Source: Lacticaseibacillus mingshuiensis (GTDB lineage: Bacteria > Bacillota > Bacilli > Lactobacillales > Lactobacillaceae). From it: a DNA stretch of 63,180 nt. The translations under genes were made by a program, and so were the position numbers. Below are positions 2,914 through 53,666 of the stretch, piece by piece (the first letter of the stretch is position 1; every line of letters starts with the position of its first letter). The stretch spans positions 1-63,180 of the forward strand of contig NZ_BOLS01000016.1 in NCBI RefSeq assembly GCF_016861785.1, read 5' to 3'. A model generated the notes under the pieces. The model ran no database searches. It was given only the letters and a program-made list of their open reading frames with translations, and was not told the DNA's origin.

Positions 2914-2983
2914 AGGGTGCGGAGCCCAACTAGGGTGTGGAGACCCGTGGGATGGCCTGGCCAACCTAATAGCGGGTCCTCTC
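2914..2983 (+). repeat. Two degenerate copies of the 120-bp palindromic repeat
   Basis: At 2914-2931 the 5' end of the repeat (AGGGTGCGGA) is joined directly to its 3' end (GCCCAACT), as if the middle had been deleted. From 2932 a second copy starts (AGGGTGTGGAGACCCGTGGG) and decays after about 50 bp. The remaining arm AGACCCG can still pair with CGGGTCCT at about 2972-2981. The stretch lies between the lysR gene and the flavodoxin-like gene. Confidence 0.6.
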
Positions 2984-3017
2984 CTATGTAACGGATCTGA
3001 TCTTCAGGAGGCAACCA

Positions 3018-3545
3018 ATGGCAGATATTATCGTCTTTTCACTGACCAGCCCGAATTGGCGCGATGGGGTGGTCCAAGAAACAACCGTGGGCAACACGGC
3101 GCTGGTCGCGGCCAAGCTTTCGGCGACGTTGGCCGCGCCTGTGCAGTGGCTCACGGCCGCTGACCCGTATCCGGCTGCCTATGAAGCGTTGGTGGCGCGG
3201 GCCAAGCAAGAGCTTGCCAGCGGAAACTGGCCCGCATTGGCCGAGCCGGTGCCGCAACTCACCGGCCGGCATGTTTTCCTCGGCTTTCCGATTTGGAACG
3301 GGGATGTCCCGCCGCTGGTGCAGCAATGGCTGAGCCAAACAGCGATGCAAGGTGTCACGGTCAGTCCATTTGTCACGCATGAAGGCAGCGGGCTCGGCAA
3401 CAGTATGGCGACGCTGCACCGTCTTTTGCCGGCCAATCAGGTGACGCGCGGCTTGGCCATTCGCGGCGGGCGCGCGGACAAATCAGACACGGCGCTGGCC
3501 AACTGGCTGGCGTGCACGAAATGTGAAATGGAGGAAACGAAATGA
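3018..3545 (+). CDS. Flavodoxin-like family protein
   Basis: A 175-residue protein resembling the flavodoxin-4 type domain that replaces or accompanies flavodoxins in redox clusters. The central segment HVFLGFPIWNGDVPPLVQQW has the pattern with which flavodoxin-like proteins form the FMN-binding loop after the third strand (compare the flavodoxin W-W/P-x-P region), and FVTHEGSGLGN is the following strand and loop. It likely carries electrons or reduces quinones in the cytoplasm. It is the first gene of a tight four-gene unit (3018-5039) and overlaps the next gene by 4 bp. Ribosome site CAGGAGGCAACC precedes ATG 3018. Confidence 0.8.
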   Translation: MADIIVFSLTSPNWRDGVVQETTVGNTALVAAKLSATLAAPVQWLTAADPYPAAYEALVARAKQELASGNWPALAEPVPQLTGRHVFLGFPIWNGDVPPLVQQWLSQTAMQGVTVSPFVTHEGSGLGNSMATLHRLLPANQVTRGLAIRGGRADKSDTALANWLACTKCEMEETK

Positions 3546-3970
3546 CAGAACAAAACAATGAAGCCGTGAAAAATGGTGTGATCTTCCCACGCGGGCCAGA
3601 AAATGCTGACTACGCCCAATTTTTCACTGGGACGAGTTACTTGCAGTCGCTGGTGGCGGATCCGGCGGTCAATGTCGGGGTCGGCGTGGTGACGTTTGCG
3701 CCGGGCACGCGGAACAATTGGCATATCCATCATGATGGGTATCAGATTCTGCTGGTGACTGGCGGCGAGGGTTGGTACCAGGAGGCCGGACAGCCGGCGC
3801 GCAAGCTGCATGCCGGCGATGTGGTGGTCACCCATGATGGCGTGAAGCACTGGCACGGCGCGACGAAGGACAGCTGGTTTGCGCACATTGCGATCACCGC
3901 GGGGACGCCGGAGTGGCTCGAGCCGGTGAGCGACGCGCAGTATGACGCGCTGGAAACGGAGGCAGACTAA
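3542..3970 (+). CDS. Cupin domain protein
   Basis: A single-domain cupin of 142 residues. The first metal-binding motif is at about 55-70 (GTRNNWHIHHDGYQ, with H61, H63 and Q68), and the second is at about 90-105 (HAGDVVVTHDGVKHWHG, with H103). Small cupins of this type are often found beside carboxymuconolactone decarboxylase-like proteins and SDR enzymes in quinone or aldehyde stress clusters, as here. The start overlaps the stop of the flavodoxin-like gene (ATGA), with GGAGG shortly before, so the two genes are translationally coupled. The enzymatic role is unknown. Confidence 0.88.
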   Translation: MTEQNNEAVKNGVIFPRGPENADYAQFFTGTSYLQSLVADPAVNVGVGVVTFAPGTRNNWHIHHDGYQILLVTGGEGWYQEAGQPARKLHAGDVVVTHDGVKHWHGATKDSWFAHIAITAGTPEWLEPVSDAQYDALETEAD

Positions 3971-4296
3971 TGGCAAAACAGACAGCCGGCCGCGATCAAT
4001 TGGGCGAACTGGCCCCGCAATTTGCGGCTTTGAATGATGATGTGTTGTTCGGCGAGGTCTGGGCGAAAACAGATGAACTCTCCGCCCGCGACCGGAGCTT
4101 GATCACCTGTGCGAGTTTGATGAGCCAGGGGCTGTTTCCACAGCTCGAGGCCCACCTGCGCATCGGTAAGACGAATGGTCTGACGGAAAAAGAAATGGTG
4201 GCGATGATCACCCACTTGGCGTTTTATGCTGGCTGGCCGAAAGCCTGGTCCGCATTTTCGCTGGTGAAAAACGTCTATGAGGAGGAAGCAAAATGA
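3970..4296 (+). CDS. Carboxymuconolactone decarboxylase (CMD/AhpD-like) family protein
   Basis: A 108-residue all-helical protein of the CMD family. The segment DRSLITCASLMSQGLFPQLEAH and the following EKEMVAMITHLAFYAGWPKA are family signatures. It has one cysteine in the first of these and lacks the CxxC pair of true AhpD, so it is unlikely to be a peroxidase-system disulfide protein of the AhpD kind. It starts at the stop of the cupin gene and overlaps the SDR gene by 4 bp. Homologues in lactobacilli sit in similar redox operons; the substrate is not known. Confidence 0.88.
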   Translation: MAKQTAGRDQLGELAPQFAALNDDVLFGEVWAKTDELSARDRSLITCASLMSQGLFPQLEAHLRIGKTNGLTEKEMVAMITHLAFYAGWPKAWSAFSLVKNVYEEEAK

Positions 4297-5039
4297 CGAT
4301 GAAAAATAAAGTGGTCGTGATCACCGGGGCGTCCAGTGGCATCGGCGAAGCGACGGCAAAACGCCTCGCCAAAGACGGCGCCAAGGTCGTGCTTGGCGCG
4401 CGGCGTGAAGACAAACTCGCACGCATCACCCGCGAGATCGAGGCGGCAGGCGGCCAGGCAGTGTATCAGGTGTGCGATGTGACGGTGCTGGCGGACAACC
4501 AGGCGTTGGTGGCACTGGCGCAAGCGCGTTTCGGCGGGCTGGATGTGCTATTTTTAAATGCCGGCTTGATGCCGAACTCGCCGCTGTCCGCACTCAAAAC
4601 AGATGAGTGGGCCGCGATGGTCGATGTGAATCTAAAAGGCGTGCTGAATGGCATCGCGGCGGCGTTGCCAATTTTCACCAGCCAGCGCCACGGCCAATTT
4701 ATCGTGACGTCCAGCGTGGCTGGGCTCAAGGCCTATCCAGGCGGGGCGGTGTATGGCGCGACCAAGTTTGCCGTGAAGGATCTGATGGAAGTGCTGCGGA
4801 TGGAATCGGCGCAGGAAGGCACCAACATCCGCACCGCGACGATCTATCCCGCGGCCGTGCGTAGCGAGCTCCTCACCACGATCACGGACAAGCAGGTGGC
4901 GGCGGGGATGGGCGAACTTTACGATCAGTACCAGATCGCCCCGGAGCGCGTGGCCAACGTCGTCGCGTTTGCCATCGACCAGCCGGCAGACACCAATGTC
5001 TCCGAATTCACGATCGGCCCAACCACCCAGCCGTGGTAA
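4293..5039 (+). CDS. Short-chain dehydrogenase/reductase (classical SDR)
   Basis: A classical 248-residue SDR. The nucleotide-binding TGASSGIG is at about residues 11-18. Arg36-Arg37 after the second strand favour NADP(H). The catalytic set is seen as N (NAG), the S in SSVAG, and YGATK with Tyr and Lys. It is the last gene of the 3018-5039 unit and overlaps the CMD gene by 4 bp, with GAGGAGG upstream. It probably reduces a carbonyl compound in the same detoxification route as the adjacent flavodoxin-like, cupin and alcohol dehydrogenase proteins. A second in-frame ATG at 4299 is an alternative start. Confidence 0.92.
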   Translation: MTMKNKVVVITGASSGIGEATAKRLAKDGAKVVLGARREDKLARITREIEAAGGQAVYQVCDVTVLADNQALVALAQARFGGLDVLFLNAGLMPNSPLSALKTDEWAAMVDVNLKGVLNGIAAALPIFTSQRHGQFIVTSSVAGLKAYPGGAVYGATKFAVKDLMEVLRMESAQEGTNIRTATIYPAAVRSELLTTITDKQVAAGMGELYDQYQIAPERVANVVAFAIDQPADTNVSEFTIGPTTQPW

Positions 5040-5055
5040 AGGCAATGGTATAATC

Positions 5056-5175
5056 AGGGTGTGGCGGACCGCGGGATGGTCGTGCATATAGGCTAGCCTA
5101 GTGCTTGGTGGCGGTCCTTGCCACCGAGTGCTTGAGTTACCTAGATGCTTCCACCATGCGAGCCGTAGCCTAACT
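5056..5175 (+). repeat. 120-bp palindromic repeat, copy B1
   Basis: A full copy of the window's intergenic repeat: 5' end AGGGTGTGGCGGACCGC, 3' end GCGAGCCGTAGCCTAACT. The inner arm GGCTAGCCTAGTGCTTGGTGGC faces GCCACCGAGTGCTTGAGTTACC around a short loop. It stands in tandem with copy B2, 2 bp apart, between the SDR and the Zn-alcohol dehydrogenase genes. Confidence 0.85.
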
Positions 5176-5177
5176 AT

Positions 5178-5297
5178 AGGGTGCGGAGCGGGGCGTATAG
5201 GTCTGAGCGGGTAGCTTGGCTCGGGTGCTTGAGGCGCACCTCGCCTCGAGTGCACGAGACAGCTAGACGTCTCAGGCCTGCCCCGCGTAGCCCGACT
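5178..5297 (+). repeat. 120-bp palindromic repeat, copy B2
   Basis: A full copy starting AGGGTGCGGAGCGGGGC and ending GCCCCGCGTAGCCCGACT. The outer arms GCGGGGC/GCCCCGC and AGGTCTGAG/CTCAGGCCT differ from those of copy B1 but remain complementary. The inner arm CTCGGGTGCTTGAGGC pairs with GCCTCGAGTGCACGAG. It ends 33 bp before the alcohol dehydrogenase start, so it would be in that mRNA leader if transcription starts upstream. Confidence 0.88.
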
Positions 5298-5330
5298 CTT
5301 ATCGAAATTAATATCGGAGGTCTTTTCCCC

Positions 5331-6371
5331 ATGAAAGTTGCCGTATTTAAACAACCGGGCCAAGTCGTGATCGAGGACCGCGACATGCCCGTGATCGAAA
5401 AATCGACGGATGCGATCATCAAGATCGTCCGCGCCAGTGTCTGCGGCTCGGACTTGTGGTGGTTCCGCGGCCTTGAGCAGCGCCCCGCCAATACCACCGT
5501 CGGCCACGAGGCAATCGGCATCGTCGAATCCGTCGGCAGCGATGTTCATCAGGTGGCGCCTGGCGATTTTGTCATCGCGCCATTCACCCACGGCTGCGGA
5601 CATTGTGCCGCCTGCCGTGCCGGTTTCGATGGTAATTGCATGAACCGCGAGCCAGGCGCCAATCCCGGCTATCAAGGCGAGTACCTGCGCTTCACCAATG
5701 CCAACTGGGCGCTGGTGAAAATTCCGGGGCAGCCGGCCGATTACTCGGAGGAAATGCTGCAGTCCTTCGTCACGTTGGCGGATGTGATGGCGACCGGCTA
5801 TCACGCGGCGGCCAGTGCTGAGGTCAAGCTCGGCGACACCGCAGTCGTGATGGGTGACGGAGCCGTTGGGTTGTGCGGGGTGATCGCCGCCAAGTTGCGC
5901 GGGGCAACGCGCATCATCGCGATGAGCCGCCACGAAGACCGCCAGAAGCTCGCCCGTGAATTTGGCGCAACGGATATCGTGGCCAGCCGAGGCGATGACG
6001 CTGTGGCCGAGGTGATGGCGTTGACCGATGGCGCCGGCGCGGATGCGGTGCTGGAATGTGTCGGCACCGAGCTCTCCGTCCAAACGGCGGTGCGCGTCGC
6101 CGGCGCCGGGGCCGTGGTGGGCCGCGTGGGCATTCCGCAAAAAGCGAAAATGAACACGAACGACCTGTTTTGGAAAAATGTCGGCCTGCGCGGTGGCATC
6201 GCCAATGTGACGACTTATGATCGCGAAGTATTGTTGCAGGCGGTCCTGGATCACAAGATCGAGCCGGGCAAGGTGTTCACCAAGCGGTTTGACCTGGATC
6301 AGATTCAGGAGGCCTATGAGGCGATGGACCAGCGCACCGCGATCAAGTCGTTGTTGGTCGTGGCAAAGTAG
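5331..6371 (+). CDS. Zinc-dependent alcohol dehydrogenase (MDR family)
   Basis: A 346-residue zinc-dependent medium-chain dehydrogenase. Catalytic zinc ligands are C38 (SVCGSD) and H59-E60 (GHEA). The structural zinc loop has C89, C92, C95 and C103 (HGCGHCAACRAGFDGNC). The NAD(P) site VVMGDGAVG lies near residue 170. ATG 5331 is chosen because CGGAGGT precedes it; a longer open frame from 5181 only reads through repeat copy B2. It is related to enzymes oxidising secondary alcohols or threonine. The neighbouring SDR and flavodoxin-like genes suggest a shared role in carbonyl detoxification. Confidence 0.93.
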   Translation: MKVAVFKQPGQVVIEDRDMPVIEKSTDAIIKIVRASVCGSDLWWFRGLEQRPANTTVGHEAIGIVESVGSDVHQVAPGDFVIAPFTHGCGHCAACRAGFDGNCMNREPGANPGYQGEYLRFTNANWALVKIPGQPADYSEEMLQSFVTLADVMATGYHAAASAEVKLGDTAVVMGDGAVGLCGVIAAKLRGATRIIAMSRHEDRQKLAREFGATDIVASRGDDAVAEVMALTDGAGADAVLECVGTELSVQTAVRVAGAGAVVGRVGIPQKAKMNTNDLFWKNVGLRGGIANVTTYDREVLLQAVLDHKIEPGKVFTKRFDLDQIQEAYEAMDQRTAIKSLLVVAK

Positions 6372-6547
6372 GCTGCGATCAACTGGTGCTTCTCACAATA
6401 GGCGTGCCAAATAGGCATCTGCAAAATCGGCAGTGGCGAAGGGTGACCGGTGTGCGCTGTACGTGGCGCGCGCCGGGCCCCTTTTTACCGAATGCTTTTT
6501 TGAAAAAAAGCTTACGCCGTCCGAATTTTTCTGGTATGGTGATCAAC

Positions 6548-6580
6548 ATGATGCCGGCGCCCAGTGCGCTGGCCGAATAG
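6548..6580 (+). CDS. Possible leader peptide MMPAPSALAE
   Basis: A ten-codon open frame begins at or next to the predicted transcription start, so it would be read as a leaderless message. It ends just before the hairpin at 6585. A Pro-Ala-Pro run could slow ribosomes. There is no ribosome site, and the existence of the peptide is speculative. Confidence 0.25.
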   Translation: MMPAPSALAE

Positions 6581-6622
6581 GATCGTCGCTGCGTATGGCT
6601 TTCGCGCAGCGACTCAACTCTG

Positions 6623-6648
6623 TAGCCCATTTTCGGGCTATTTTTTTT
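6623..6648 (+). terminator. Intrinsic terminator inside the exporter leader
   Basis: TAGCCC-attttc-GGGCTA is followed by eight T residues, 39 bp ahead of the exporter start codon. Because it lies inside the presumed leader, it may attenuate rather than end the upstream adh transcript. Confidence 0.75.
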
Positions 6649-6686
6649 GCGCAAAAACAGGCGCATGGAAGGATGGCATTATATTT

Positions 6687-8105
6687 ATGGAAATCACACA
6701 ATCTCAGGCACTCCCAAAGGCGCGGGTCATTGTCGCGCATCCGGCGCTGGCGATGGTCGGCTTGATGATCGGTAGCTTCGTGGGGATGTTCTCAGAGACC
6801 TCGCTGAACATCGCGCTGGCCACGATCACCAGCGCGCTTGGCGTGACGGCCGGGGCGGCGCAGTGGCTGATCACCGGGTACATGCTCGTGATTGGCATCT
6901 TCATGCCACTATCGAGTCTTTTGACCAAATGGGCGACCACGAAAAAGATCGTCCTGGTCGCGCTTGGCGCCTTCATCGTGGGCGCGGTGATCGCCGCGAC
7001 CAGCACCAGTTTTCCCGTGTTGCTGGTTGGCCGGATGATCCAGGGCATCGGCACAGGACTGGTCCTGCCACTGATGTTTTCCGTCGCGATGCAGATCGTC
7101 GCACCGCATAAATTGGGCACAGTGATGGGGCTGGCGGCGCTGGTCATCATGTTTGCCCCGGCGATCGCGCCGACCTTGACCGGGCTGTTGTTGGCCAAGG
7201 CCTCTTGGCACGCGATTTTCTGGGTGCTGGTGCCGTTTTTGGTCGTCGCGTTTGGCTTTGTCGCGCTGTATCTGGACAATGTGTACCAGCAGACGAAAAC
7301 ACCGATCGATTGGCTGTCCATTGCGGAAAGCACGGTCGGTTTTGCGGCGATCGTGCTCGGCGCCTCGATGGCCTCGGACAGCGGTTGGTTATCCGGCAAG
7401 GTTCTCGGCACGTTGGCGATCGGCCTGATCGTGTTGGCCGCGTATGCGCACCGCCAGCTTCATCTTGAGATGCCAATTCTCAATCTGCATGTTTTCAGCT
7501 CGGGGCGTTTCACCACTGGGACGGTGCTCGTGATGCTTGATTTCGGTCTGATCTTGAGCGCGATGTACCTGTTTCCGATGTATTTGCAGCGGGTGGTCGG
7601 CTTGCCGATCGCGATGACGGGGCTGGCGATGTTGCCAGGTGGCATCGTGAATGCGGTGGTCTCCGGCGTGGCCGGGCGGCTGTATGACAATTATGGGGCA
7701 AAATGGCCTGCACGCATTGGCTTTTTCATCGCGGCGCTCGGGGTGCTGGTGTTGCTGAGTAGCACCGGGTCGAGTCCGCTGTGGTACCTGATCTTGGGTC
7801 ATGTGGTCTTGATGATCGGCGCGCCGCTTGCGATGTCGCCGGCACAAACATACGGGCTGAACAGCCTGCCGGGCCGCCTCAGTGCAGATGGCAGTGCCAT
7901 TTTGAACACGCTCCAACAGATCATCGGCGCGCTGGCGACCGCGATCGCCACGAGCTTGTTGGCGAGCGGGATGGCCGGGCAGACTGGGTCGGCCGGGGTG
8001 AACGCCGGCATCCATGCTGGGTTCGTGTTTGTCCTGATCATCGCGGTGGCGGGCTTCCTGATGGCCTTTCGGGTCCAGGCGGCGCCGGCCGGTCAGCAGG
8101 AATAG
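6687..8105 (+). CDS. MFS drug exporter, DHA2 family (EmrB/QacA type)
   Basis: A 472-residue major facilitator of the DHA2 type with about 14 membrane segments. Motifs seen: SETSLNIALATI in TM1 (the QacA-type motif D1 region), GAAQWLITGYMLVIG in TM2, and GRMIQGIGTGLVLPLMF (motif B/C region). ATG 6687 follows GGAAGGA by 13 bases; an upstream in-frame ATG at 6564 would read through the leader hairpin and terminator and is rejected. It is related to lincomycin/multidrug exporters of Gram-positive bacteria. A hairpin-rich leader precedes it. Two further DHA2 paralogues lie at 19438 and 26511. Confidence 0.92.
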   Translation: MEITQSQALPKARVIVAHPALAMVGLMIGSFVGMFSETSLNIALATITSALGVTAGAAQWLITGYMLVIGIFMPLSSLLTKWATTKKIVLVALGAFIVGAVIAATSTSFPVLLVGRMIQGIGTGLVLPLMFSVAMQIVAPHKLGTVMGLAALVIMFAPAIAPTLTGLLLAKASWHAIFWVLVPFLVVAFGFVALYLDNVYQQTKTPIDWLSIAESTVGFAAIVLGASMASDSGWLSGKVLGTLAIGLIVLAAYAHRQLHLEMPILNLHVFSSGRFTTGTVLVMLDFGLILSAMYLFPMYLQRVVGLPIAMTGLAMLPGGIVNAVVSGVAGRLYDNYGAKWPARIGFFIAALGVLVLLSSTGSSPLWYLILGHVVLMIGAPLAMSPAQTYGLNSLPGRLSADGSAILNTLQQIIGALATAIATSLLASGMAGQTGSAGVNAGIHAGFVFVLIIAVAGFLMAFRVQAAPAGQQE

Positions 8106-8113
8106 TGGTGGGG

Positions 8114-8142
8114 AAAAACCAGCGGCGACGTTGGTTTTTTTT
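8114..8142 (+). terminator. Intrinsic terminator after the DHA2 exporter
   Basis: AAAAACCAgCG and CGtTGGTTTTT form a hairpin with a T tract, 9 bp after the stop codon. Confidence 0.75.
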
Positions 8143-8208
8143 ATACGGAAAAGCGGGTGGCGGCGCGCGCATCTGGTGATCGCTATCTGTGATTTTTAAA
8201 AATACAGG

Positions 8209-8267
8209 TTGACGTCCGTTTTGATGGTGTTACTATGTAAACAACAGGTTACGTTAAAAGTAACTTG
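8209..8267 (+). promoter_or_regulatory. Promoter and operator of the QorB-like gene
   Basis: The -35 is TTGACG (8209-8214) and the -10 TACTAT (8231-8236), 16 bp apart. Immediately downstream is an inverted repeat CAGGTTAC-N7-GTAACTTG (8245-8267), placed where a bound repressor would block the start of transcription. The Rrf2-type regulator encoded next (9205) is the obvious candidate ligand, by inference. Confidence 0.65.
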
Positions 8268-8296
8268 ATTGGGACATAAAAAGGAGATCATTGATC

Positions 8297-9151: not shown

Positions 9152-9204
9152 CAGCGGCTTCGCAAAACGGTATACTGAACGCAACGGAAAGGGGCGCGAT
9201 TCGA

Positions 9205-21201: not shown

Positions 21202-21321
21202 AGTTGGGTTTCGGTGCGTATGGCCGCGACGGCTAACTGGTCTGTGCACGTCTGGCGAGGTGCGCCAAACGCACCCAGGCCAAGTTAGCCGCACGTCCAT
21301 AAGCGCGCACCGACACACCCT
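21202..21321 (-). repeat. 120-bp palindromic repeat, copy C (minus orientation)
   Basis: A full copy read on the minus strand, AGGGTGTGTCGGTGCGC to GCACCGAAACCCAACT. The outer arms GGTGCG/CGCACC and inner arms TGGCGCACCTCGCCA remain paired. It lies between the ribbon-helix-helix gene and ppk2, in reverse orientation to both. Confidence 0.85.
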
Positions 21322-23349: not shown

Positions 23350-23470
23350 AGGGTGCGGAGGTCCGCGTTTATGGTGGGGCAGCTAGGTCGGCTCATGCCT
23401 TGATGACGCATTTGGCCATCGAGTGCAGGAGACGCCTAGATGTCCCCACCATGCGAGCTGGAGCCCGACT
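23350..23470 (+). repeat. 120-bp palindromic repeat, copy D1
   Basis: Starts 6 bp after the upstream stop codon. The arms TGGTGGGGCA/TGTCCCCACCA and CTAGG/CCTAG, with an inner TTGATG...CATCGA, form the hairpin. It is followed in tandem by D2 and the fragment D3. Confidence 0.88.
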
Positions 23471-23475: not shown

Positions 23476-23594
23476 AGGGTGCGGAGCGGGGCGCTCAGGT
23501 CTGAGCAGCTAGTGCGGCCTGGGCGCGTATGCGCATTTAGCCATGCGTGACCAGGTCGACTAGATGCCTCAGACCTGCCCCGCGCAGCCCGACT
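23476..23594 (+). repeat. 120-bp palindromic repeat, copy D2
   Basis: Outer arms GCGGGGCG/GCCCCGC and CAGGTCTGAG/CTCAGACCTG, different from D1 but fully complementary, with CAGCTAG/CTAGATG further in. Begins 5 bp after D1. Confidence 0.88.
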
Positions 23595-23597: not shown

Positions 23598-23621
23598 AGG
23601 GTGCGGAGGTCCGCGGGCTGC
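23598..23621 (+). repeat. Truncated repeat copy D3 (5' end only)
   Basis: AGGGTGCGGAGGTCCGCGGG is the 5' arm; the rest is missing. The next bases (CTGCGAACTG) resemble the loop and arm of the terminator that follows, suggesting a rearrangement here. Confidence 0.6.
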
Positions 23622-23644
23622 GAACTGAGCGTCACAATAAGCAA

Positions 23645-23706
23645 AAAGACTGTGCAGTTGCCCACCCGCCGATCCGCGGGCTCGCAACTGCACAGTCTTT
23701 TTTTGC
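23645..23706. terminator. Strong bidirectional terminator
   Basis: A perfect 17-bp inverted repeat: AAAGACTGTGCAGTTGC (23645-23661) and its complement at 23684-23700, a 22-base loop, A and T tracts on both sides. It ends the minus-strand permease gene. The loop contains CCGCGGG, like the adjacent repeat fragment. Confidence 0.9.
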
Positions 23707-32170: not shown

Positions 32171-32291
32171 AGGGCGCGGAGATCCGCGTTTGTGATTGGG
32201 CAGCTGGGTTGGCGCATGCGCTTATGGCGTATTGTGCCATCGAATGCATGAGACACCTAAAAGTCCCAATCATGCGGACCGAAGCCTAACT
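32171..32291 (+). repeat. 120-bp palindromic repeat, copy E
   Basis: Single copy, 5' AGGGCGCGGAGATCCGC, 3' GAAGCCTAACT. The arms TGATTGGGCA/AGTCCCAATCA and TTATGGC/GCCATCGA are paired. It lies between the convergent GNAT and asnA genes, ending 14 bp past the asnA stop. Confidence 0.85.
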
Positions 32292-37942: not shown

Positions 37943-37965
37943 CGGGAACGCTCGGCTTCACACCC
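37943..37965 (-). repeat. Repeat fragment F0 (5' end, minus orientation)
   Basis: On the minus strand GGGTGTGAAGCCGAGCGTTCC matches the 5' arm of subtype G (GGATGCGGAGCCGAGCG) at 43438. Confidence 0.55.
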
Positions 37966-37967
37966 GT

Positions 37968-38086
37968 AGTTGGGTTCCGGTGCGCATGGCGGGGACATCT
38001 AACTGTCTCGTGCACTCGAGGCGAAGTGCGCCTCAAGCACCCGAGCCAAGTTAGCTGCCCCACCATCCCGCGCACCTCCGCACCCT
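37968..38086 (-). repeat. 120-bp palindromic repeat, copy F1
   Basis: Full minus-strand copy. Outer arms GGTGCGC/GCGCACC, middle TGGTGGGGCA facing TGTCCCCGCCA, inner TTGAGGC/GCCTCGA. In tandem with F2, 5 bp apart. Confidence 0.88.
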
Positions 38087-38091: not shown

Positions 38092-38208
38092 AGTTGGGTT
38101 CCGGTGCGCATGGTCGCGACATCTAGGTGCGCCCAGCACTCGGGGCAAAAGCACCCCAAGCGCCGGGCGAGCCTAGCTGCACGACCATCCCGCGCACCTC
38201 CACACCCT
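38092..38208 (-). repeat. 120-bp palindromic repeat, copy F2
   Basis: Full minus-strand copy with arms GGTGCGC/GCGCACC, TGGTCGTGCA/TGTCGCGACCA and TTGGGGTG/CCCCGAG. Its first two bases overlap the stop codon of the downstream-encoded MFS gene, so the repeat abuts the 3' end of that gene directly. Confidence 0.88.
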
Positions 38209-43285: not shown

Positions 43286-43311
43286 ATCCTAAACGCTCGG
43301 CTTCGCATCCT
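43286..43311 (-). repeat. Repeat fragment G0 (5' arm, minus orientation)
   Basis: GGATGCGAAGCCGAGCG on the minus strand repeats the 5' arm of the adjacent copy G, without the rest. Confidence 0.55.
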
Positions 43312-43316: not shown

Positions 43317-43438
43317 AGTTGAGCTCCGCCGAGCAGGGGTGGGACATGTAGTCGTCCCGGCCGCTCGATGGCCAAGTGCGCCATCAATCGTCCAGGCCGA
43401 ACTACCTGCCCACCCCTAAGCGCTCGGCTCCGCATCCT
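43317..43438 (-). repeat. 120-bp palindromic repeat, copy G (variant subtype)
   Basis: Minus-strand copy with distinct ends (AGGATGCGGAGCCGAGCG... and ...CTCGGCGGAGCTCAACT). The arms GCCGAGC/GCTCGGC and AGGGGTGGG/CCCACCCCT are complementary, inner ATGGC/GCCAT. It lies between divergent promoters of gntR and the LmrCD-like genes. Confidence 0.85.
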
Positions 43439-47055: not shown

Positions 47056-47206
47056 GTCCAGGACGCGGGTTGCCGGGGGCGCAGGCCACACCTGGACCAA
47101 TTTGCCAGGCGCAAAGATGAAAAGCTGGTGATAAAACGTGTGAGCGCTTGCCACGAAGCTTACTTTTTATTAGAATATACCTATTAACTGGAAAGGAGGA
47201 TGGTCG

Positions 47207-48019
47207 ATGCGTGCACTAAAGATCGGTATTTTGAACGTGATGCATGACAAGCGGGCGACAAATCAGCGACTGCGCAATGCCCTGACGGCAGGTGAGCAGC
47301 CTGTTGACCTGCACTTTTTTTACCCGCCGCAACATTATCAAGGCCGGCCCGTACCCGAGGCAGTGAGCGAGATCTTGCAGCCTTTGGATCTGGCGCTTGC
47401 CGCCGACATGGATGGTTTCATCATCACCGGTGCGCCCATTGAGACCATCGCCTTCGATGATGTGACTTACATCGAGGAGCTCCGGGCGTTGCTGGCGACG
47501 TTGGACCAGCACCATGTGACCCAGCTCTACTTGTGTTGGGGCGCCATGGCAGCCCTTGACTATTTTTATAAAATTCGCAAAGATATTTTGCCTCACAAAT
47601 TATTCGGCGTGTATCCCCAACAGATCCGTGAGCAAACGCCGCTGCTGACGGGCCTGCGAGACGGTTTCACGGCGCCGCATGCGCGCTATGCGGAAATGAA
47701 CCAAGCGCAGATCGCACGTGACCCGGATCTGACCATTGCCGCCACCACGGTGAACGATGAGTTGTTCCTGGTCGAAAACGCGGCGCGGCGTCAGACATTT
47801 TTGTTTGCGCATCTGGAATACGGGCGGCTAGGGTTGATGCAGGAATACGAGCGCGAAGTCGCGGCGCATCCCGAGCGGACCTACCGCAAGCCGGAAAATT
47901 ATTTTGCTGACCCTGCTGCGATGTGCGGCCCAGAGTTTTCATGGGCGGACACCCAGCGTCTGTTTTTCGCCAATTGGCTGACAAAGGTCCAAGAACCTGT
48001 CGCCATGACGGAACACTGA
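47207..48019 (+). CDS. MetA-like O-acyltransferase, probable serine/homoserine O-acetyltransferase
   Basis: A 270-residue enzyme of the homoserine O-succinyl/acetyltransferase (MetA) fold. Catalytic Cys in [13 protein letters not shown], the His in FAHLEYG and the Glu following it form the triad. [15 protein letters not shown] is the family segment before it. The gene is adjacent to cysK, 14 bp apart. In L. casei a MetA-annotated protein next to cysK was shown to be a serine acetyltransferase, so here O-acetylserine production for cysteine synthesis is more likely than methionine synthesis. RBS AAAGGAGG. Confidence 0.9.
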
Positions 48020-48033
48020 AAGGAGTTTTTATC

Positions 48034-48951
48034 ATGATCGCAAATTCAATCACTGAACTGATCGGCAACACCCCATTATTGAAATTGAACCGCGTTGTGC
48101 CAGAAGGAGCCGCGGATGTTTTGGTCAAGCTCGAGTTCTTCAACCCGGGTGGCTCGGTCAAGGACCGTATCGGCTTGGCGATGATCGAAGCCGCTGAGCA
48201 AAGCGGTCAGCTGCAGCCAGGCGGCACGATCATTGAGCCGACGTCTGGCAACACGGGCATCGGGCTGTCGTTGGTCGCCGCCGCCAAAGGGTATCATTTG
48301 ATCATCACGATGCCGGAGACGATGAGTGTCGAGCGCCGCGCGATCATTCAGGGCTATGGCACCGAGTTGATCTTGACGCCTGGCGCTGAGGGGATGCCTG
48401 GCGCGATCAAGAAGGCGGAAACGCTGGCCAAGGAGAATGGCTATTTTCTGCCGATGCAGTTTGCCAACCCGGCGAACCCCGATGTGCATGAGCGCACGAC
48501 CGGACAAGAGATTCTCAAGGCGTTGGGCGGCAAGGCGCCTGATGCGTTTGTCGCTGGCGTTGGCACTGGTGGCACCCTGACCGGTGTCGGCCGCGCGCTT
48601 CGCAAGGCGGACAAGGACGTTCAGATCTACGCGCTTGAGGCCGCTGAGTCCCCGATGCTCAAGGAAGGCCACGGCGGGAAGCACAAGATTCAAGGTATTT
48701 CCGCAGGCTTCATTCCGGAAGTCTTGGACACGAAGCTGTATAACGGCATCGTTGAGGTCACCTCTGATCAGGCGATTCAGATGGTGCAACAGGTCAGCCG
48801 CGAAGAAGGGTTCCTGCCGGGTATTTCCGCCGGCGCCAATATCTTCGGGGCCATCGAGCTCGCCAAGAAACTCGGCGCGGGGCACACAGTTGTGACCGTT
48901 GCGCCGGATAACGGGGAACGCTACCTGTCCACAGATCTGTTTAAGTTCTGA
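48034..48951 (+). CDS. cysK: Cysteine synthase (O-acetylserine sulfhydrylase)
   Basis: A 305-residue PLP enzyme making cysteine from O-acetylserine and sulfide. PLP lysine is in [11 protein letters not shown]; the substrate loop is PTSGNTGIG, and the phosphate-binding loop [13 protein letters not shown] 48034 follows AAAGGAG; upstream in-frame codons lie inside the previous gene. The operon with the MetA-like acyltransferase gives a two-step serine to cysteine route. Confidence 0.96.
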
Positions 48952-49017
48952 TCAGTGATTGCTGAGCCGGTGCCCGAACGTTAGGGTGCTGGCGACCATC
49001 GGCATAAAATTGAGACT

Positions 49018-49070
49018 AAAAAAGAGCTTGACCAAAGTTCGCGTCCTGCGATCCTGGTCAAGCTCTTTTG
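49018..49070. terminator. Bidirectional terminator between cysK and the HTH gene
   Basis: AAAGAGCTTGACCA (49021-49034) pairs perfectly with TGGTCAAGCTCTTT; A and T tracts flank it. Confidence 0.9.
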
Positions 49071-49071
49071 T

Positions 49072-49287
49072 TTACTTCCGTTCTTGGTCTGGGACGTAGC
49101 GCAAGATGTCCCCGGGCTGGCAGTCTAGGGCCTGGCAAAGCGCCGCCAGCGTATTGAAGCGGACGCCTTTTGCCTTTCCCGTTTTTAAGATCGACAGGTT
49201 GGCCGGGGTGATATCGATGGCGGCGGCCAGATCTGTGCCTAGCATGCCGCGTGCCAGCATGAGTTTATCGAGATCGATTTCGATCAT
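49072..49287 (-). CDS. Cro/CI-type HTH regulator, YozG-like
   Basis: A 71-residue single-domain HTH protein. KLMLARGMLGTDLAAAIDITPANLSILKTG is the HTH, and LAALCQALDCQPGDILRYVP the conserved tail. Such YozG-like regulators are nearly always encoded behind a DUF2975 membrane protein, as here (12 bp). RBS TAAGGAGG. It probably regulates its own operon via the dyad at 49898. Confidence 0.9.
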   Translation of the reverse strand: MIEIDLDKLMLARGMLGTDLAAAIDITPANLSILKTGKAKGVRFNTLAALCQALDCQPGDILRYVPDQERK

Positions 49288-49299
49288 TGGCCTACCTCC

Positions 49300-49881
49300 T
49301 TAGATCATCGCATCGGCGTCTTGTTGCAAGGCGACACCGTATTTCATCAAAATATAGATCACAAACGTCACCGCCAATTGGATCAGTGGCTCGAGATCAA
49401 GTGAGAGATCGTAGTGCTGCGTGACTCCCGCTGCCAGCAAACTGAAGACCCAGCCACCCACCAGGTCAAACCCTTCGATCCACACGAGCCGCCGCAGCTG
49501 GTGCACATTGTCGGCCACAAAAAACTGTCCGGCTTTGACGTTCTTGATCAGCTTGATGAAGGCTTGCAGGCCAATCAGTATCAAGATCAACGCATAGACG
49601 GCCGCGATCACGACCAAGACTAACAACGCCGATGCCATGTCGCTATCTGCGCCATTCAGTCCATTGCCGGTTTCGATTCCGGCCATGCCTACATTTTGCA
49701 CGAGTTGGTCGATGCTTTTTCCATACAGCGTCATGTGTTCCCACAACACATGGCCTTGTGTGGCCGTCACGACGATCAAGATGCCAGCGATGACACTTGC
49801 GAGCTGACCGATGCGGCACATGACATGCAAAAAGCTCAACGCGAACCGGGTGACACCATGAATCATTGCCTTTGCTTCCAT
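49300..49881 (-). CDS. DUF2975 family membrane protein
   Basis: A 193-residue protein with four hydrophobic segments (about 15-45, 85-110, 135-160, 165-185). The segment FIKLIKNVKAGQFFVADNVHQLRRLVWIEG is the family's cytoplasmic loop. Function unknown; always linked to a small HTH regulator in Firmicutes. ATG 49881 has GGAGGT upstream; the longer open frame toward 50097 overlaps the divergent gene. Confidence 0.88.
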   Translation of the reverse strand: MEAKAMIHGVTRFALSFLHVMCRIGQLASVIAGILIVVTATQGHVLWEHMTLYGKSIDQLVQNVGMAGIETGNGLNGADSDMASALLVLVVIAAVYALILILIGLQAFIKLIKNVKAGQFFVADNVHQLRRLVWIEGFDLVGGWVFSLLAAGVTQHYDLSLDLEPLIQLAVTFVIYILMKYGVALQQDADAMI

Positions 49882-49897
49882 TTTTCTTACCTCCGAG

Positions 49898-49916
49898 ATT
49901 ATCGTCAAACGATAAT
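49898..49916 (-). promoter_or_regulatory. Palindromic operator upstream of the DUF2975-HTH operon
   Basis: ATTATCGT-CAA-ACGATAAT, an 8-3-8 perfect dyad, 17 bp before the gene start; likely target of the YozG-like regulator. Confidence 0.6.
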
Positions 49917-50029
49917 TCGCGAACCGGCCACTCCTGAAATTGGGCGTTGGTTCGCAGCTGAAAATGGTATTTGCGCGGGAAAGGCGGTATGATGGACTTA
50001 CCAAAAGTAGGTAATGAGGAGGCAGACGC

Positions 50030-50650
50030 ATGAAGATCTTTGTGGTTGGCGCAAACGGCCAAGTGGGACGGTTGCTGGTGGAAACGCTGCTCGACAATGA
50101 TTATCAAGTCACCGGTGGCTACCGCGATCCGGCGCAGCAGGCCCCGGAGGCTGGAAGCCAAGCATTCGCTGCGGTCCATTTTGATTTAACGGCGCCAGTC
50201 GCTGAATTGGCTGCCGCCTTGGCTGGCCATGATGCGGTGATCTTTGCGGCGGGCTCACAGGGCAAGGCACTGCTGTCTGTGGACCTCGACGGCGCGGTGA
50301 AGACGCAGCTGGCCGCCGAACAAGCCGGCGTGACGCGGTTCATTCAACTCAGCAGCTTGAATGCTGAGTCGCGCGCGAACTGGCCGGCCAGTCTTCATGA
50401 CTACTACATCGCCAAATTTTACGCGGATGAGTGGCTGAAAACACGGACCCAGCTGGATTACGTGATCGTCCAGCCCGCCGCGTTGACCAACGACGAGGCG
50501 ACCGGCATGATCACGATCGAGCCGGCCGGGACTGCCACCATCACGCGTCAGGATGTTGCCTCGGTGCTGGCGCGAGCGGTCGAATCCGATTGCCATCGCG
50601 AGACGATCAAGCTCGCGAATGGCGCCGTGCCGATCGCGCAGGTCTTGTAG
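50030..50650 (+). CDS. NAD(P)-binding Rossmann protein (YhfK-like atypical SDR)
   Basis: A 206-residue atypical SDR. MKIFVVGANGQVGRLLVETL carries the GxxGxxG motif; FIQLSSLNAESR and YYIAKFYADEWLK provide Ser and Tyr-x3-Lys-like residues, and LDYVIVQPAALT the strand after. NAD(P)H-dependent reductase or epimerase of unknown substrate. RBS ATGAGGAGGC. Divergent from the DUF2975 gene. Confidence 0.9.
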   Translation: MKIFVVGANGQVGRLLVETLLDNDYQVTGGYRDPAQQAPEAGSQAFAAVHFDLTAPVAELAAALAGHDAVIFAAGSQGKALLSVDLDGAVKTQLAAEQAGVTRFIQLSSLNAESRANWPASLHDYYIAKFYADEWLKTRTQLDYVIVQPAALTNDEATGMITIEPAGTATITRQDVASVLARAVESDCHRETIKLANGAVPIAQVL

Positions 50651-50747
50651 TCGGGTTCCAGCCCGCCCCCCTTGTCGTCTAGGTCTTGTCGGCGGCGATA
50701 AAAGCTGATATAGTCAAAGCAACATCAACGAAACGGAGTGGAAGCCA

Positions 50748-50756
50748 TTGAAGTAA
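50748..50756 (+). CDS. Minimal upstream ORF (Met-Lys-stop) in the ABC-F leader
   Basis: TTG AAG TAA lies 9 bases after GGAG, inside the 5' arm of a long-range stem. Possibly a start-stop-type regulatory ORF; not demonstrated. Confidence 0.35.
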   Translation: MK

Positions 50757-50767
50757 GCCCATTGCAG

Positions 50768-50814
50768 AAAAGTCACAGAGTCGCGCAAAGAATTGGCGCA
50801 ATCTCGACTTTTTT
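50768..50814 (+). terminator. First leader terminator
   Basis: AAAAGTC/GACTTTT plus inner AGA/TCT and GCGC/GCGC pairs, ending in six T residues. Confidence 0.65.
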
Positions 50815-50844
50815 CCAATGGCGACGTCAATGGCTTCCGCAACT

Positions 50845-50869
50845 GGTGCGGGCAGCCGCGCCTTTTTTT
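50845..50869 (+). terminator. Second leader terminator
   Basis: GGTGCGG-GCAG-CCGCGCC followed by seven T residues, 215 bp before the ABC-F start codon. Confidence 0.8.
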
Positions 50870-50871
50870 GT

Positions 50872-50989
50872 AGGGTGCGGCGGCCTGTGGGCTGGTGGAA
50901 CGACTAACTGAGCTCGGCGCGTCTGGCGCGCATCGCCATCCGTGCAAGAGACAGTTAGGCGTTTCCACCATGCGGGCCGGAGCCCAACA
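50872..50989 (+). repeat. 120-bp palindromic repeat, copy H
   Basis: Full copy that begins directly after the T run of the leader terminator. Arms GGCCTG/GGGCC, CTGGTGGAACG/GTTTCCACCA, CTAACTG/CAGTTAG and GGCGCG. It is inside the transcribed leader of the ABC-F gene. Confidence 0.85.
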
Positions 50990-51083
50990 GTGGCAAAAAA
51001 CGGACCAGTCCGGCTGGCGTTTTCCGCACACTGCCTTTGGAAAAAAATCGCGTGCACCTTCTTTGCAGGAAAGGATGATGCAG

Positions 51084-52586
51084 ATGACGACGATCTCACT
51101 TTCGCATTTGACCTTTGGCTATGACGGCCAGGGGGACCTGCTGTTTGACGATGCGAGCTTTGACCTGGATACCTCTTGGCGGTTGGGGCTGGTGGGCCGC
51201 AATGGGCGGGGGAAGACCACGCTTTTGAAATTGCTGCAGGGCAAGCTGCCATATCAGGGCCGGCTGACGGTGCCCGTGCCGCTGAATTATTTTCCCCAAC
51301 CGATCGAGGATGAAGATCAGCTGACGCTGTATGCGATGCAGGCGATCAGTGAGGCCGAGCAGTGGCAACTGGAACGGGAGCTCAATTTGCTGGCGGTCGA
51401 CCCCGATGTGTTGTGGCGGCCGTACGCCTCGCTGTCCGGAGGGGAGCAGACGAAGGTGCGTCTGGCGCTACTTTTTACCGACACGACGCATTTTGCCTTG
51501 ATCGATGAGCCGACCAACCACCTAGACGCGGCGAGCCGAGCCAAGGTGGCGGCCTACCTGAAGTTGAAGCAGGGCTTCATCGTGGTCAGCCACGACCGCC
51601 ATTTTCTCGATGCGGTGTGCGATCACACGCTGGCTATCGACAAGCGCAAGATCTCGCTGACGCAGGGCAATTATAGCGTTTACGAGGCGGCTAAGAAGCA
51701 GCAGGACGCCGCCGAGTTAGCTGAAAACGCGAAGCTGAAAAAAGACATCGGACGCCTCCGCGAAACAGCGGCGGAAAAAGGGCGCTGGGCGGCGACTCGC
51801 GAAAAAGATAAATACGGTGATCCGCATAAACGCGGCAGTGGGGCGATCGGAGACACTGGCTTCATCGGGGCGCGGGCGGCGCGGGTGATGCAAAAACGTA
51901 AGAACCTGGAACACCGCATGGATAAGGCAATCGATGATAAGTCGCACTTGCTACAAAACATCGAAGAAGTCGCGCCGCTGACGATTGCGACACAGCCGGA
52001 TCACCACGAGGTCTATCTGTCTGTTTCCGAGCTCACGTTGGCCTATGATGGGAAGCCCCTTTTTGAACCGCTGAGCTTTGATCTGCATCGCGGGGAGCGC
52101 TTGGCGATCGTCGGGCCAAATGGCAGTGGCAAGTCCTCCCTGATGGCCGCGCTTTTGGGGCAGTTTACCGGCGAGGTGCAGGGAACGGTCGTGCTCAAAT
52201 CGTCGGTGACCATTAGCCAGGTGCGTCAGCTTTATCCCGATAACCGTGGCCTACTGAAGGATTTTGCGGCCAACCGCCAACTCGATCTTGAGGCGTTTTT
52301 GAACAACCTGCGCAAGCTTGGCCTTGAGCGCAATGCATTTGCCACACCGATCGAGCAGCTGTCGATGGGGCAGCAGAAAAAAGTGGAGTTGGCCAAGTCA
52401 CTGGCAACCCCGGCCAATTTGCTGATCTGGGATGAACCGGTGAATTACTTGGATCTATTCAATCAGGATCAACTGACCGCCAGCATTCTCGCGTATCAGC
52501 CCACGATGCTGTTTGTCGAGCATGACCAGGATTTCATCGCCAAAACAGCGACGCGGGTCGTGCCGCTGAAGCCACTTAATAGGTAA
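51084..52586 (+). CDS. ABC-F ribosomal protection protein, Lsa-like
   Basis: A 500-residue duplicated ATPase without membrane domains. First domain: Walker A GRNGRGKT, LSGGEQTK, Walker B FALIDEPTNHLD. Between them is the linker (about 190-290) with a charged helical hairpin. Second domain: GPNGSGKS, the atypical LSMGQQKK and LLIWDEPVNYLD. The length and these motifs match Lsa-type proteins giving lincosamide, streptogramin A and pleuromutilin resistance by acting on the ribosome. ATG 51084 fits the site AGGAAAGG; ATGs at 51075/51078 are too close, and the frame extending to 50895 reads through repeat H. Confidence 0.9.
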   Translation: MTTISLSHLTFGYDGQGDLLFDDASFDLDTSWRLGLVGRNGRGKTTLLKLLQGKLPYQGRLTVPVPLNYFPQPIEDEDQLTLYAMQAISEAEQWQLERELNLLAVDPDVLWRPYASLSGGEQTKVRLALLFTDTTHFALIDEPTNHLDAASRAKVAAYLKLKQGFIVVSHDRHFLDAVCDHTLAIDKRKISLTQGNYSVYEAAKKQQDAAELAENAKLKKDIGRLRETAAEKGRWAATREKDKYGDPHKRGSGAIGDTGFIGARAARVMQKRKNLEHRMDKAIDDKSHLLQNIEEVAPLTIATQPDHHEVYLSVSELTLAYDGKPLFEPLSFDLHRGERLAIVGPNGSGKSSLMAALLGQFTGEVQGTVVLKSSVTISQVRQLYPDNRGLLKDFAANRQLDLEAFLNNLRKLGLERNAFATPIEQLSMGQQKKVELAKSLATPANLLIWDEPVNYLDLFNQDQLTASILAYQPTMLFVEHDQDFIAKTATRVVPLKPLNR

Positions 52587-52627
52587 AAAAACCCCGCAAG
52601 CACAAATTTCTGCTTGCGGTTTTTTTG
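52584..52627. terminator. Terminator after the ABC-F gene
   Basis: CCGCAAGCA and TGCTTGCGG with A and T tracts; serves the convergent ECF S gene too. Confidence 0.88.
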
Positions 52628-52630
52628 TGC

Positions 52631-53248
52631 TCAGGCGATCGTTGTTGCGGTGCGCCAAGGCTTGATATGTGTGGCTGCGCTTAGGGCCGCGACGATCAGC
52701 GGGGTGATGATCACGGCGCCGATCACTTCGGGGATGCCATTCGTCAGCACCAGCCCACCCAAGACCTTCAAGAGGCCACTTGATGGGACCTTATACGCAG
52801 AGGCGACTTGGTCGGTGTACAGGATGCCCATAAAAAATAGCACGCCGATGGTATTGGTCAGAGTGGCAAAAAAGGCGGCGACGATGCTGGCCACGGACAC
52901 GCGGTGCACCAGCTTGTAGACGCCCCAGAAAACCAGAGCCGCCACGAGCCCAACCAGTACGCGCGGAACGACGGAGACCAACGGATTGGTGAAGACTAAC
53001 GTATCCAGTGGCGTCGTCGGGGCGGTGTAGGCCCGGACAATCGTCATGATGCCCCAGACGAGGCCGACGAAAATGCCGTCCCATGGCCCAAGCATGATCG
53101 CCGCAACGATCACGGTGATGTGGATGATGGTCAGTGACATGAATCCAAGCGGAATGAAGCCGAACATCGGCACCGTCGCCTGCAGGGCAATAATGGCAAT
53201 AAACAAAGCGCGAATCACGATTTTAAACGTATGTTGACGATCGCTCAT
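52631..53248 (-). CDS. ECF transporter S component (vitamin-type), paralogue 2
   Basis: A 205-residue membrane protein, six hydrophobic segments, clearly paralogous to 9728-10369 (shared IPLGF-S-TIIHITVIV-AIM, RAYTAP-TPLDTL-FTNPLVSVVPR, and NGIPE-IGA-I-TPL). ATG 53248 lies 6 bases after GGAG; an earlier in-frame start would overlap an operator. PanT-like by resemblance; substrate uncertain. Two operators identical in type to those of paralogue 1 control it, and a TetR gene is divergent. Confidence 0.83.
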   Translation of the reverse strand: MSDRQHTFKIVIRALFIAIIALQATVPMFGFIPLGFMSLTIIHITVIVAAIMLGPWDGIFVGLVWGIMTIVRAYTAPTTPLDTLVFTNPLVSVVPRVLVGLVAALVFWGVYKLVHRVSVASIVAAFFATLTNTIGVLFFMGILYTDQVASAYKVPSSGLLKVLGGLVLTNGIPEVIGAVIITPLIVAALSAATHIKPWRTATTIA

Positions 53249-53275
53249 AGCTTGCTCCAACGAAAATAAATTTAA

Positions 53276-53336
53276 TGACACGTGTGTCACCAGTTTTCAT
53301 AAGGCCGATTATAGAATATAATGACGGTAATGTCAC
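53276..53336 (-). promoter_or_regulatory. Promoter with two TGACAC-N2-GTGTCA-type operators (ECF S paralogue 2)
   Basis: On the minus strand -35 GTGACA (53331-53336), 17 bp, -10 TATAAT (53308-53313). Operator 3 TGACAC-GT-GTGTCA is at 53276-53289, in the early transcribed region. The weaker operator 4 (TGAC-N6-GTCA) is at 53322-53335, over the -35. This is the same arrangement as at 10396-10449. Confidence 0.75.
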
Positions 53337-53346
53337 TAATTATTTT

Positions 53347-53465
53347 AGGGTGCGGAAGCTCGCGGGATGGCCGGGCGACTAGCTTGACTCGGGCGCTTGA
53401 GGCGTCCTTGGCCTCGAGTGCCCGAGTCAGCTAGACGTCCCGACCATGCGAGCTGAAGCCCGACT
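53347..53465 (+). repeat. 120-bp palindromic repeat, copy I1
   Basis: The clearest hairpin of the family: AGCTCGC/GCGAGCT outside, CTAG/CTAG and GACTCGGGC/GCCCGAGTC in the middle, TTGAGGC/GCCTCGA inside around a 7-base loop. First of three tandem copies upstream of tetR. Confidence 0.9.
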
Positions 53466-53469
53466 GCAT

Positions 53470-53590
53470 AGGGTGCGGAAGCTCGCGGGATGGCGGAACA
53501 GCTAGGTCGGCTCAAGCGCTTGATGGCGTTCTTAGCCATCGAGTGCTTGAGACGCCTAGATGCTTCCGTCATGCGAGCTGAAGCCCAACT
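53470..53590 (+). repeat. 120-bp palindromic repeat, copy I2
   Basis: Same outer arms as I1 (AGCTCGC/GCGAGCT), but different inner arms: GGCGGAACA/TGCTTCCGTC, GGCTCAAGC/GTGCTTGAG, TTGATGGC/GCCATCGA. Confidence 0.9.
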
Positions 53591-53592
53591 TT

Positions 53593-53666
53593 AGGGTGCG
53601 GAAGCTCGCGGGATGGTGGGGCAGGTAGTTTCCTGGGCGTTTGATGGCCCCCCGCGAAGCCCAACT
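53593..53666 (+). repeat. Internally deleted repeat copy I3
   Basis: Keeps the 5' part (AGGGTGCGGAAGCTCGCGGG) and the 3' end (GCGAAGCCCAACT) with about 45 bp lost from the middle. It ends 2 bp before the tetR ribosome site. Confidence 0.75.

Follow-up and report, generated by a model that had tools for sequence, protein, structure and literature searches.

The window is the full length (63,180 nucleotides) of contig NZ_BOLS01000016.1 of Lacticaseibacillus mingshuiensis; its 2.76-Mb genome, coded G000, belongs to a Lacticaseibacillus close to L. yichunensis. It contains twelve full copies of a repeat unit of about 120 nucleotides (nt), predicted to fold into one long rod-like hairpin with conserved bulges. 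The copies keep this fold while their letters change fast, and at fixed sites in the genome entire hairpins appear, disappear, or are exchanged for others. The reading that we favour, with moderate confidence, is that of an old, non-coding hairpin repeat, interspersed in genomes of Lactobacillaceae, that turns over as whole hairpins through recombination.

A covarying hairpin and its spread

A covariance model was built from the 12 window copies, which are 117-122 nt long in the alignment; the minus strand carries four of them (21202, 37968, 38092, and 43317). A scan of the window with this model returned full-length matches at all 12 starts named in an earlier sequence-only reading of the DNA. 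Because the model was trained on these same copies, their match confirms anatomy and not significance; independent support comes from 139 matches outside the window. In order, the rod consists of a 4-bp outer stem, a purine-rich internal loop, a 7-bp stem, a bulge of 3-4 nt, a long interrupted stem, and a terminal loop. This loop, previously given as 7 bases, is either 5 or 7 nt in DNA and RNA folding. When five copies are folded as single strands, the z-scores range from -2.5 to -7.5 for DNA and from -3.8 to -9.6 for RNA. Units begin with AGGG and end with ACT, and about 4 bp pair at the extreme ends. The shared ends that had been described hold as a consensus and not as exact sequences, AGGGTGCGGA being exact in six of the 12 aligned copies and GCCCAACT in one. 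With up to one mismatch, AGGGTGCGGA occurs 20 times in the window, in some cases outside the copies, against a mean of 5.2 and a largest count of 11 in shuffles.

The covariation of the repeat stems is very strong, which bears out the claim that the two arms change together. Among the 12 window copies, double changes occur at 23 of 42 predicted pairs. In an alignment of the best 150 of 191 matches from the own genome (148 of them distinct), 96.3% of cells pair and both partners have changed in 31 of 39 pairs. The covariation score of this alignment is 0.502; shuffles give 0.182 and slid controls no more than 0.087, and none of 500 shuffles reached the observed level. As it was fitted to the model, this alignment leans towards the modelled structure. 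A second alignment, from other genomes of the genus, comprises 84 matches at 36 loci, including some repeated copies and weak opposite-strand matches; among its 68 distinct rows, both partners vary in all 39 pairs, the paired share of cells is 89.1%, and the score is 0.686 against 0.184 in shuffles. In one helix, three pairs do not form in most of these sequences.

Several bases left unpaired by the model are nearly invariant: G8, A10, G120, and A122 are present in 148, 141, 147, and 149 of 150 copies, respectively, and could form G·A pairs within the internal loop. A T·G pair in the outer stem is retained in 117 of 148 copies. Across the modelled pairs, G·T combinations far outnumber A·C (266 vs 66), which marks the written plus strand as the strand kept folded.

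Comparison with a sister genome, coded G021, allows changes to be followed in place. In 32 same-site unit pairs, which are at least 88% identical (mean 95%), differences fall at 85 of 952 unpaired sites (8.9%) and at about 94 of 2894 paired sites (3.2%); in a wider set of 51 reciprocal best pairs, the counts are 175 of 1554 and about 152 of 4584, respectively. Among one-sided changes in the same-site pairs, 41 give or remove G·T, 16 give or remove A·C, and 29 are of other kinds, while three double changes kept their pair and one broke it. Unpaired transitions are balanced by strand (23 vs 24). Structural constraint in place is thus real, though not strict. The slower change of paired sites, together with the retained wobbles and loop bases, agrees with selection, one of two causes of the covariation put forward by the sequence-only reading.

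The units are mosaics of nested stems, in which the arms of each stem are matched and distant stems assort independently. At 19 variable pairs, partners up to 106 columns apart share 0.24-1.35 bits of excess mutual information. Column 12, for example, shares 0.93 bits with its partner 118 and 0.01 bits with column 38, and the outer stem (columns 12-15) is linked to columns 24-28 at 0.02-0.67 bits and to columns 38-48 at 0.00-0.14 bits. These mosaics would be expected if whole hairpins and inner tips are exchanged and mismatched products are then lost; many independent compensatory changes would also give them. The outer stem exists in 17 haplotypes, six of which cover 132 of 150 copies, and so small a number of common haplotypes favours block exchange over many independent compensatory changes. 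Units at loci L065, L068, L073, and L079 have little stem sequence in common with those of the window, with similar ends and loops, and at L065 and L068 several kinds of unit stand side by side.

The model search extends the family well beyond the window. All 150 candidates scored in the own genome (of 1667 candidates in all) match the model, 139 outside the window and 11 inside it. At E ≤1e-10, at least 191 copies are present in 423,518 bases made up of the window and 76 stretches around matches; these bases are 15% of the genome, and the count is a lower bound. A profile search of the same stretches gives 189 full units. Within the genus, 26 of 30 genomes match at E ≤0.01, the own genome included. 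Five genomes are rich in copies (G000, G006, G011, G014, and G021), each with at least 105-120 matches among 120 scored candidates; the minima for G006, G011, and G014 are 119, 114, and 105, respectively. Across the family, a stricter search that scored 18 candidates per genome gave matches in 15 of 201 genomes and in 5 of 40 genera. A 24-base pattern matched 11 named stretches, all from L. yichunensis 33-1, in a search from which the own genome was possibly left out. Relatives also occur on plasmids of L. paracasei, L. rhamnosus, Pediococcus acidilactici, and P. inopinatus (14 records, 75-80% identical to a unit from genome G042). Phage records gave no match to a G042 unit, and plasmid records none to the one window unit used as a query. 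Contigs C12 and C17 of the own genome start in or at a unit, and units may therefore disturb assembly.

Turnover at fixed sites and the structure of arrays

Thirty-seven sites have both flanks matched in the surveyed pieces of G021. Full units are present in both species at 34 of these, and at 23 of the 37 the two species differ in how many full units they have. At least one unit is shared at 86% identity or more at 26 of the 34 sites; at the other eight no unit is shared, and the flanks are 84.3-99.7% identical. Units are replaced at fixed sites, and the spacers and flanks stay. This, and the independent assortment of distant stems whose own arms remain matched, supports the second cause that had been put forward for the covariation, a copying mechanism. 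Unit order can also change between the species (L136:7796 and L106:1741), and three sites without a full G021 unit keep remnants, two of them clear and one doubtful (L136:2499). Several window sites illustrate the range of outcomes. At 43317 the sister species carries a different unit between flanks that are 91 and 95% identical. Where the window has the pair 5056/5178, G021 has one unit, which matches the second; the unit at 38092 resembles the single G021 unit at its site too little to have an ortholog there; and at 50872 G021 retains the 5' half only.

Plasmids show the same turnover. At one site between phosphotransferase system (PTS) genes, the L. paracasei plasmids pMGB0245-2 and pMGB0734-3 have units that are 78% identical, and the flanks are 98.1% and 98.4% identical. 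Between these two units, four pairs have changed on both sides and been kept, two have changed on one side and been kept, and four are broken. A P. inopinatus plasmid carries the same unit as pMGB0734-3, and in two L. plantarum plasmids the 3' end of a unit alone is left at this PTS site. A second plasmid site was seen in three forms: with two units and a remnant, with a single unit, or with the remnant alone. Shortened sites were examined in two of four L. plantarum and two of six L. paracasei plasmids.

The 189 full units group into 105 arrays, of which 48 hold one unit, 39 two, 9 three, and 9 four. All units of an array point in one direction throughout the own genome, and are separated by spacers of 0-6 nt, with one of 16 nt; the commonest spacers are none, G, GT, AC, and AA. 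Locus L067 is unlike these 105 arrays, since it has opposed units at 1501-1623 (plus) and 1662-1785 (minus), 38 nt apart. Spacer sequence is tied more closely to the array than to the unit: identical spacers within arrays make up 43 of 105 pairs against 2.7 expected, and 44 of 75 against 2.6 in G021. Neighbouring units are mostly unrelated, as 98 of 120 within-array pairs fall below an identity of 0.85, one lies at 0.85-0.9, and 21 reach at least 0.9. The closest relative is an array neighbour for just 33 of 141 units in multi-unit arrays, which argues against simple tandem duplication as the sole source of units.

The two ends of an array differ. The left end is sharp and preceded by A/T-rich sequence, and a 3' remnant stands there in 2 of 105 arrays. 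On the right, a copy of the 5' arm (score of at least 12) is present in 81 of 105 arrays and is most often 20-30 nt long (79 measured); random control places reached such a score on either side in 0 of 105 cases. We considered these partial copies as a sign of rolling-circle or reverse-transcribed insertion. This is not shown, as plain decay may shape the right end likewise: at L136:1670 and at window 50872, the sister has a 5' remnant where the own genome has a full unit.

For 98 of the 105 arrays, a place between predicted genes could be assigned, the genes being longest reading frames and not annotation; three of the 105 lie within predicted reading frames. Of the 98, 49 follow an upstream gene that runs in their own direction and 49 one that runs against them, and 33 are opposed to both neighbours. 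Surroundings are convergent for 28 of 98 arrays; among gene pairs that have no array between them, the figure is 40 of 257. Behind an in-line upstream gene, the median distance to the array start is 3 nt. This context fits insertion wherever it is tolerated and makes no general case for an mRNA element.

Mechanism and competing explanations

The enzyme searches covered three families, reverse transcriptase, integron integrase, and Y1 transposase, and support none of them as what moves the repeat; we therefore favour turnover by recombination. PF00078 gave no match in the own genome, to which the reverse transcriptase search was confined apart from 14 control genomes (three of them positive), and retro-copying by reverse transcriptase is accordingly disfavoured. 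Y1 transposase models match three times in the own genome and twice in G021, and not at all in G006, G011, and G014, three of the five copy-rich species, which disfavours mobility of the RAYT type. The complete Y1 gene of the own genome adjoins a frame that encodes a putative TnpB. Under the recombination reading, arrays would lengthen or shorten when a unit recombines with the truncated 5'-arm copy on the right side, which would serve as a ready direct repeat. New kinds of unit may enter through ectopic gene conversion, or through template switching limited to the hairpin, with the exchange covering whole hairpins or inner tips. Mismatched products would then be cleared by selection acting on the folded strand, whether this is RNA or single-stranded DNA. 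At most places the repeat most likely behaves as a selfish or nearly neutral element.

Several observations weigh against this account. Pair-keeping in place is only moderate, with 46 changed pairs broken and 44 kept, and departures from Watson-Crick pairs lead to G·T in 47 cases and to A·C in 27 (p = 0.027, both directions counted). Units of different arrays average 72% identity, which is low for ordinary homologous recombination. Consecutive spacers differ in 38 of 60 cases beside unrelated units, so some units may carry their own spacer, as excised circles would. The even division of orientations gives no sign of regular transcription of the plus strand. A clean empty site was seen at none of the 37 compared sites, meaning that first insertion was not observed, and the direction of each change (gain, loss, or replacement) is read from two species with no outgroup.

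The main rival, which we hold to be somewhat unlikely, is that the units are miniature inverted-repeat transposable elements (MITEs): non-autonomous transposon units that a DNA transposase of the genome mobilises. The spacers would be its 2-6 bp target duplications, and arrays would be built by repeated insertion beside an older unit. The sharp left end and A/T-rich target are as this predicts. So is the resemblance of the left-flank end to the first spacer, which was examined for arrays with spacers of at least 2 nt (74 of 105 in the own genome and 42 of 52 in G021) and exceeds chance in both species: 133 of 294 bases agree in the own genome (2000 shuffles, mean 102, largest 125) and 78 of 197 in G021 (shuffle mean 55, largest 75). 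Identical consecutive spacers also stand beside unrelated neighbours in 22 of 60 cases, compared with 7 of 13 beside related ones. However, spacer length is not fixed and ranges from 0 to 6 nt among arrays, the pairing at the extreme ends is confined to about 4 bp, and the right side of the 81 arrays noted above is a truncated unit and not host sequence. The lack of a clean empty site also counts against MITEs.

A second alternative is a functional RNA element, in which the transcribed hairpin acts on its own mRNA (3' stability, an RNase III site, or attenuation) and is kept by selection. In place, the rate of change at paired sites is 2.7 times lower than at unpaired ones, and the excess of G·T over A·C points to a strand asymmetry. 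The short distance behind in-line upstream genes, loop motifs common to several species, and a plasmid locus with the unit in line between the PTS IID and DUF956 genes also point this way. Orientation does not: the equal numbers of arrays in line with and opposed to the upstream gene disfavour a regularly oriented mRNA element, and a third of the placed arrays oppose both neighbours. In three plasmids, two from L. paracasei and one from P. inopinatus, the unit is antisense between PTS IIC and IIB (L213 1501-1617, L214 1501-1616, and L215 1501-1616), and the number and kind of units turn over quickly. We judge this explanation unlikely as a whole.

A more far-reaching version of hairpin exchange would make the folded hairpin itself the unit of inheritance, with structure-reading machinery copying or swapping hairpins or their tips among hundreds of sites. 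We think this quite improbable; if true, it would define a class of mobile element by shape, with sequence nearly free, across several Lactobacillaceae genera and their plasmids.

Purely mutational upkeep of the hairpins is very unlikely. Template switching between the arms of a quasi-palindrome would keep them matched without selection, and the arms do change together in blocks, even between otherwise 98% identical plasmids. Such switching would erase wobbles and bulges, yet the outer-stem T·G and the near-invariant G8, A10, G120, and A122 persist and bulges recur in other species; these conserved imperfections argue against arm template switching as the sole cause.

Integron-like attC sites, recombined as folded single strands by a tyrosine recombinase, are largely refuted: covarying hairpin arrays with conserved unpaired bases and an end, GCCCAAC, resembling the RYYYAAC core would suit them, but none of 13 integrase-model (IntI) matches in the own genome is above the cut-off, no genes lie between units, and the spacers follow the array more than the unit. 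The likeness to attC is that structure is kept, sequence is free, and hairpins form arrays; here there are no cassettes.

REP sequences go with a Y1 transposase. Like the REP/REPIN-RAYT system, the present family has many palindromic intergenic copies, but REPs are shorter, at 20-40 bp (PMC3733652), and Y1 is absent here from three species with at least 105-119 matches. ERIC and BOX are the nearest kinds, and the defining ends of both are lacking here, making the repeat comparable to them and a member of neither. According to PMC2229807 and PMC10969869, ERIC is a 127-bp, mostly intergenic element with stem-loop transcripts and 30 to 711 copies per genome; PMC2229807 lists TA ends, a 7-bp terminal inverted repeat, and target duplication. 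The present units are likewise single imperfect hairpins of about that size between genes. They differ in having the ends AGGG...ACT with no TA ends or TA duplication, spacers mostly of 0-6 nt, tandem arrays with array-specific spacers, and stems that differ by covariation between copies of one genome. For BOX, PMC3049150 gives a predicted folded RNA form, modules that vary in number between strains, and two routes of change, unequal crossover and circular excision with reinsertion. The present family is also a small interspersed repeat with a predicted fold and variable module number. Unlike BOX, in which boxA and boxC ends surround boxB copies, it has no such end modules: each module is a complete hairpin, and the sole end feature is the truncated copy on the right.

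The sequence-only reading had not recognised the family. Rfam gave no match at gathering score in the window, where all 12 weak matches at 53000-54000 lay below their gathering scores (eight of them to microRNA models). In 20 loci of other genomes no match covered a unit, the sole match being a thiamine pyrophosphate (TPP) riboswitch (L199 1784-1892) beside a unit at 1501-1618. A described Rfam RNA was rejected on these grounds. No published description of the repeat was found, in a literature coverage without most subscription journals, so novelty against print is unproven; in passages of PMC2267715 and PMC1590033, the sole Lactobacillus mentioned is L. johnsonii. The family adds a repeat for which no name was found to plasmids of the food species L. 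paracasei and L. rhamnosus.

With nearly 200 known copies, a sister genome sharing sites, and plasmids that differ by one hairpin, the repeat offers a natural experiment on the joint change of paired bases. It could separate selection after single mutations from block exchange of hairpins as sources of covariation, a distinction that matters to all methods that read RNA structure from covariation.

Copies in the window and neighbouring repeats

The full units, truncated copies, and remnants in the window are collected in Table 1.

Table 1. Units of the hairpin repeat and their partial copies in the window, with the most similar unit at the same site in the sister genome G021
Feature	Position	Strand	Score or basis	G021 counterpart
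Three consecutive remnants	2844-2908, 2914-2931, 2932-2989	+	Weak matches, E 0.85, 0.16, 0.53	
Full unit, first of pair	5056..5175	+	87.8 bits	
Full unit, second of pair	5178..5297	+	123.9 bits	92% to G021 unit
Full single unit	21202..21321	-	109.9 bits	97% to G021 unit
Full unit, first of pair	23350..23470	+	116.5 bits	94% to first G021 unit
Full unit, second of pair	23476..23594	+	117 bits	Best match in G021 array 70%
Truncated 5'-arm copy closing array	23598..23622 (end approximate)	+	By eye	
Full single unit	32171..32291	+	107.9 bits	83% to G021 unit, same site
Truncated 5'-arm copy closing array	37948..37967 (ends approximate)	-	By eye	
Full unit, second of minus-strand pair	37968..38086	-	130.2 bits	93% to single G021 unit
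Full unit, first of minus-strand pair	38092..38208	-	104 bits	79% to single G021 unit
Truncated 5'-arm copy closing array	43288..43311 (ends approximate)	-	By eye	
Full single unit	43317..43438	-	111.8 bits	69% to G021 unit
Full single unit directly behind a run of T	50872..50989	+	94 bits	
Full unit, first of pair	53347..53465	+	125.4 bits	Best in G021 array of three 79%
Full unit, second of pair	53470..53590	+	119.2 bits	Best in G021 array 74%
Collapsed copy (hairpin partly deleted) closing array	53593..53666	+	21.1 bits, E 0.004	

Other repeats occur in the window. Shortly behind the truncated copy at 23598..23622 stands an inverted repeat (23643-23702) with 30-nt arms that are 87% complementary; it starts in A, ends in T, and is terminator-like. 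The first 84 nt of the window are 98-100% identical to G021 C38:1-77 and C19:40493-40569, both contig ends, and to C11:44757-44840, which indicates that the contig starts in another multi-copy sequence. A second, larger structured repeat of about 235 nt occupies 136-371 (-113.6 kcal/mol) and has several inner hairpins in a closing stem that holds GGGTGCGGAG and GCAGCCC, like the 120-nt unit. At least 17 other places in G021 match parts of this larger repeat, and the copies at L168 and L155 are without one of the inner hairpins.

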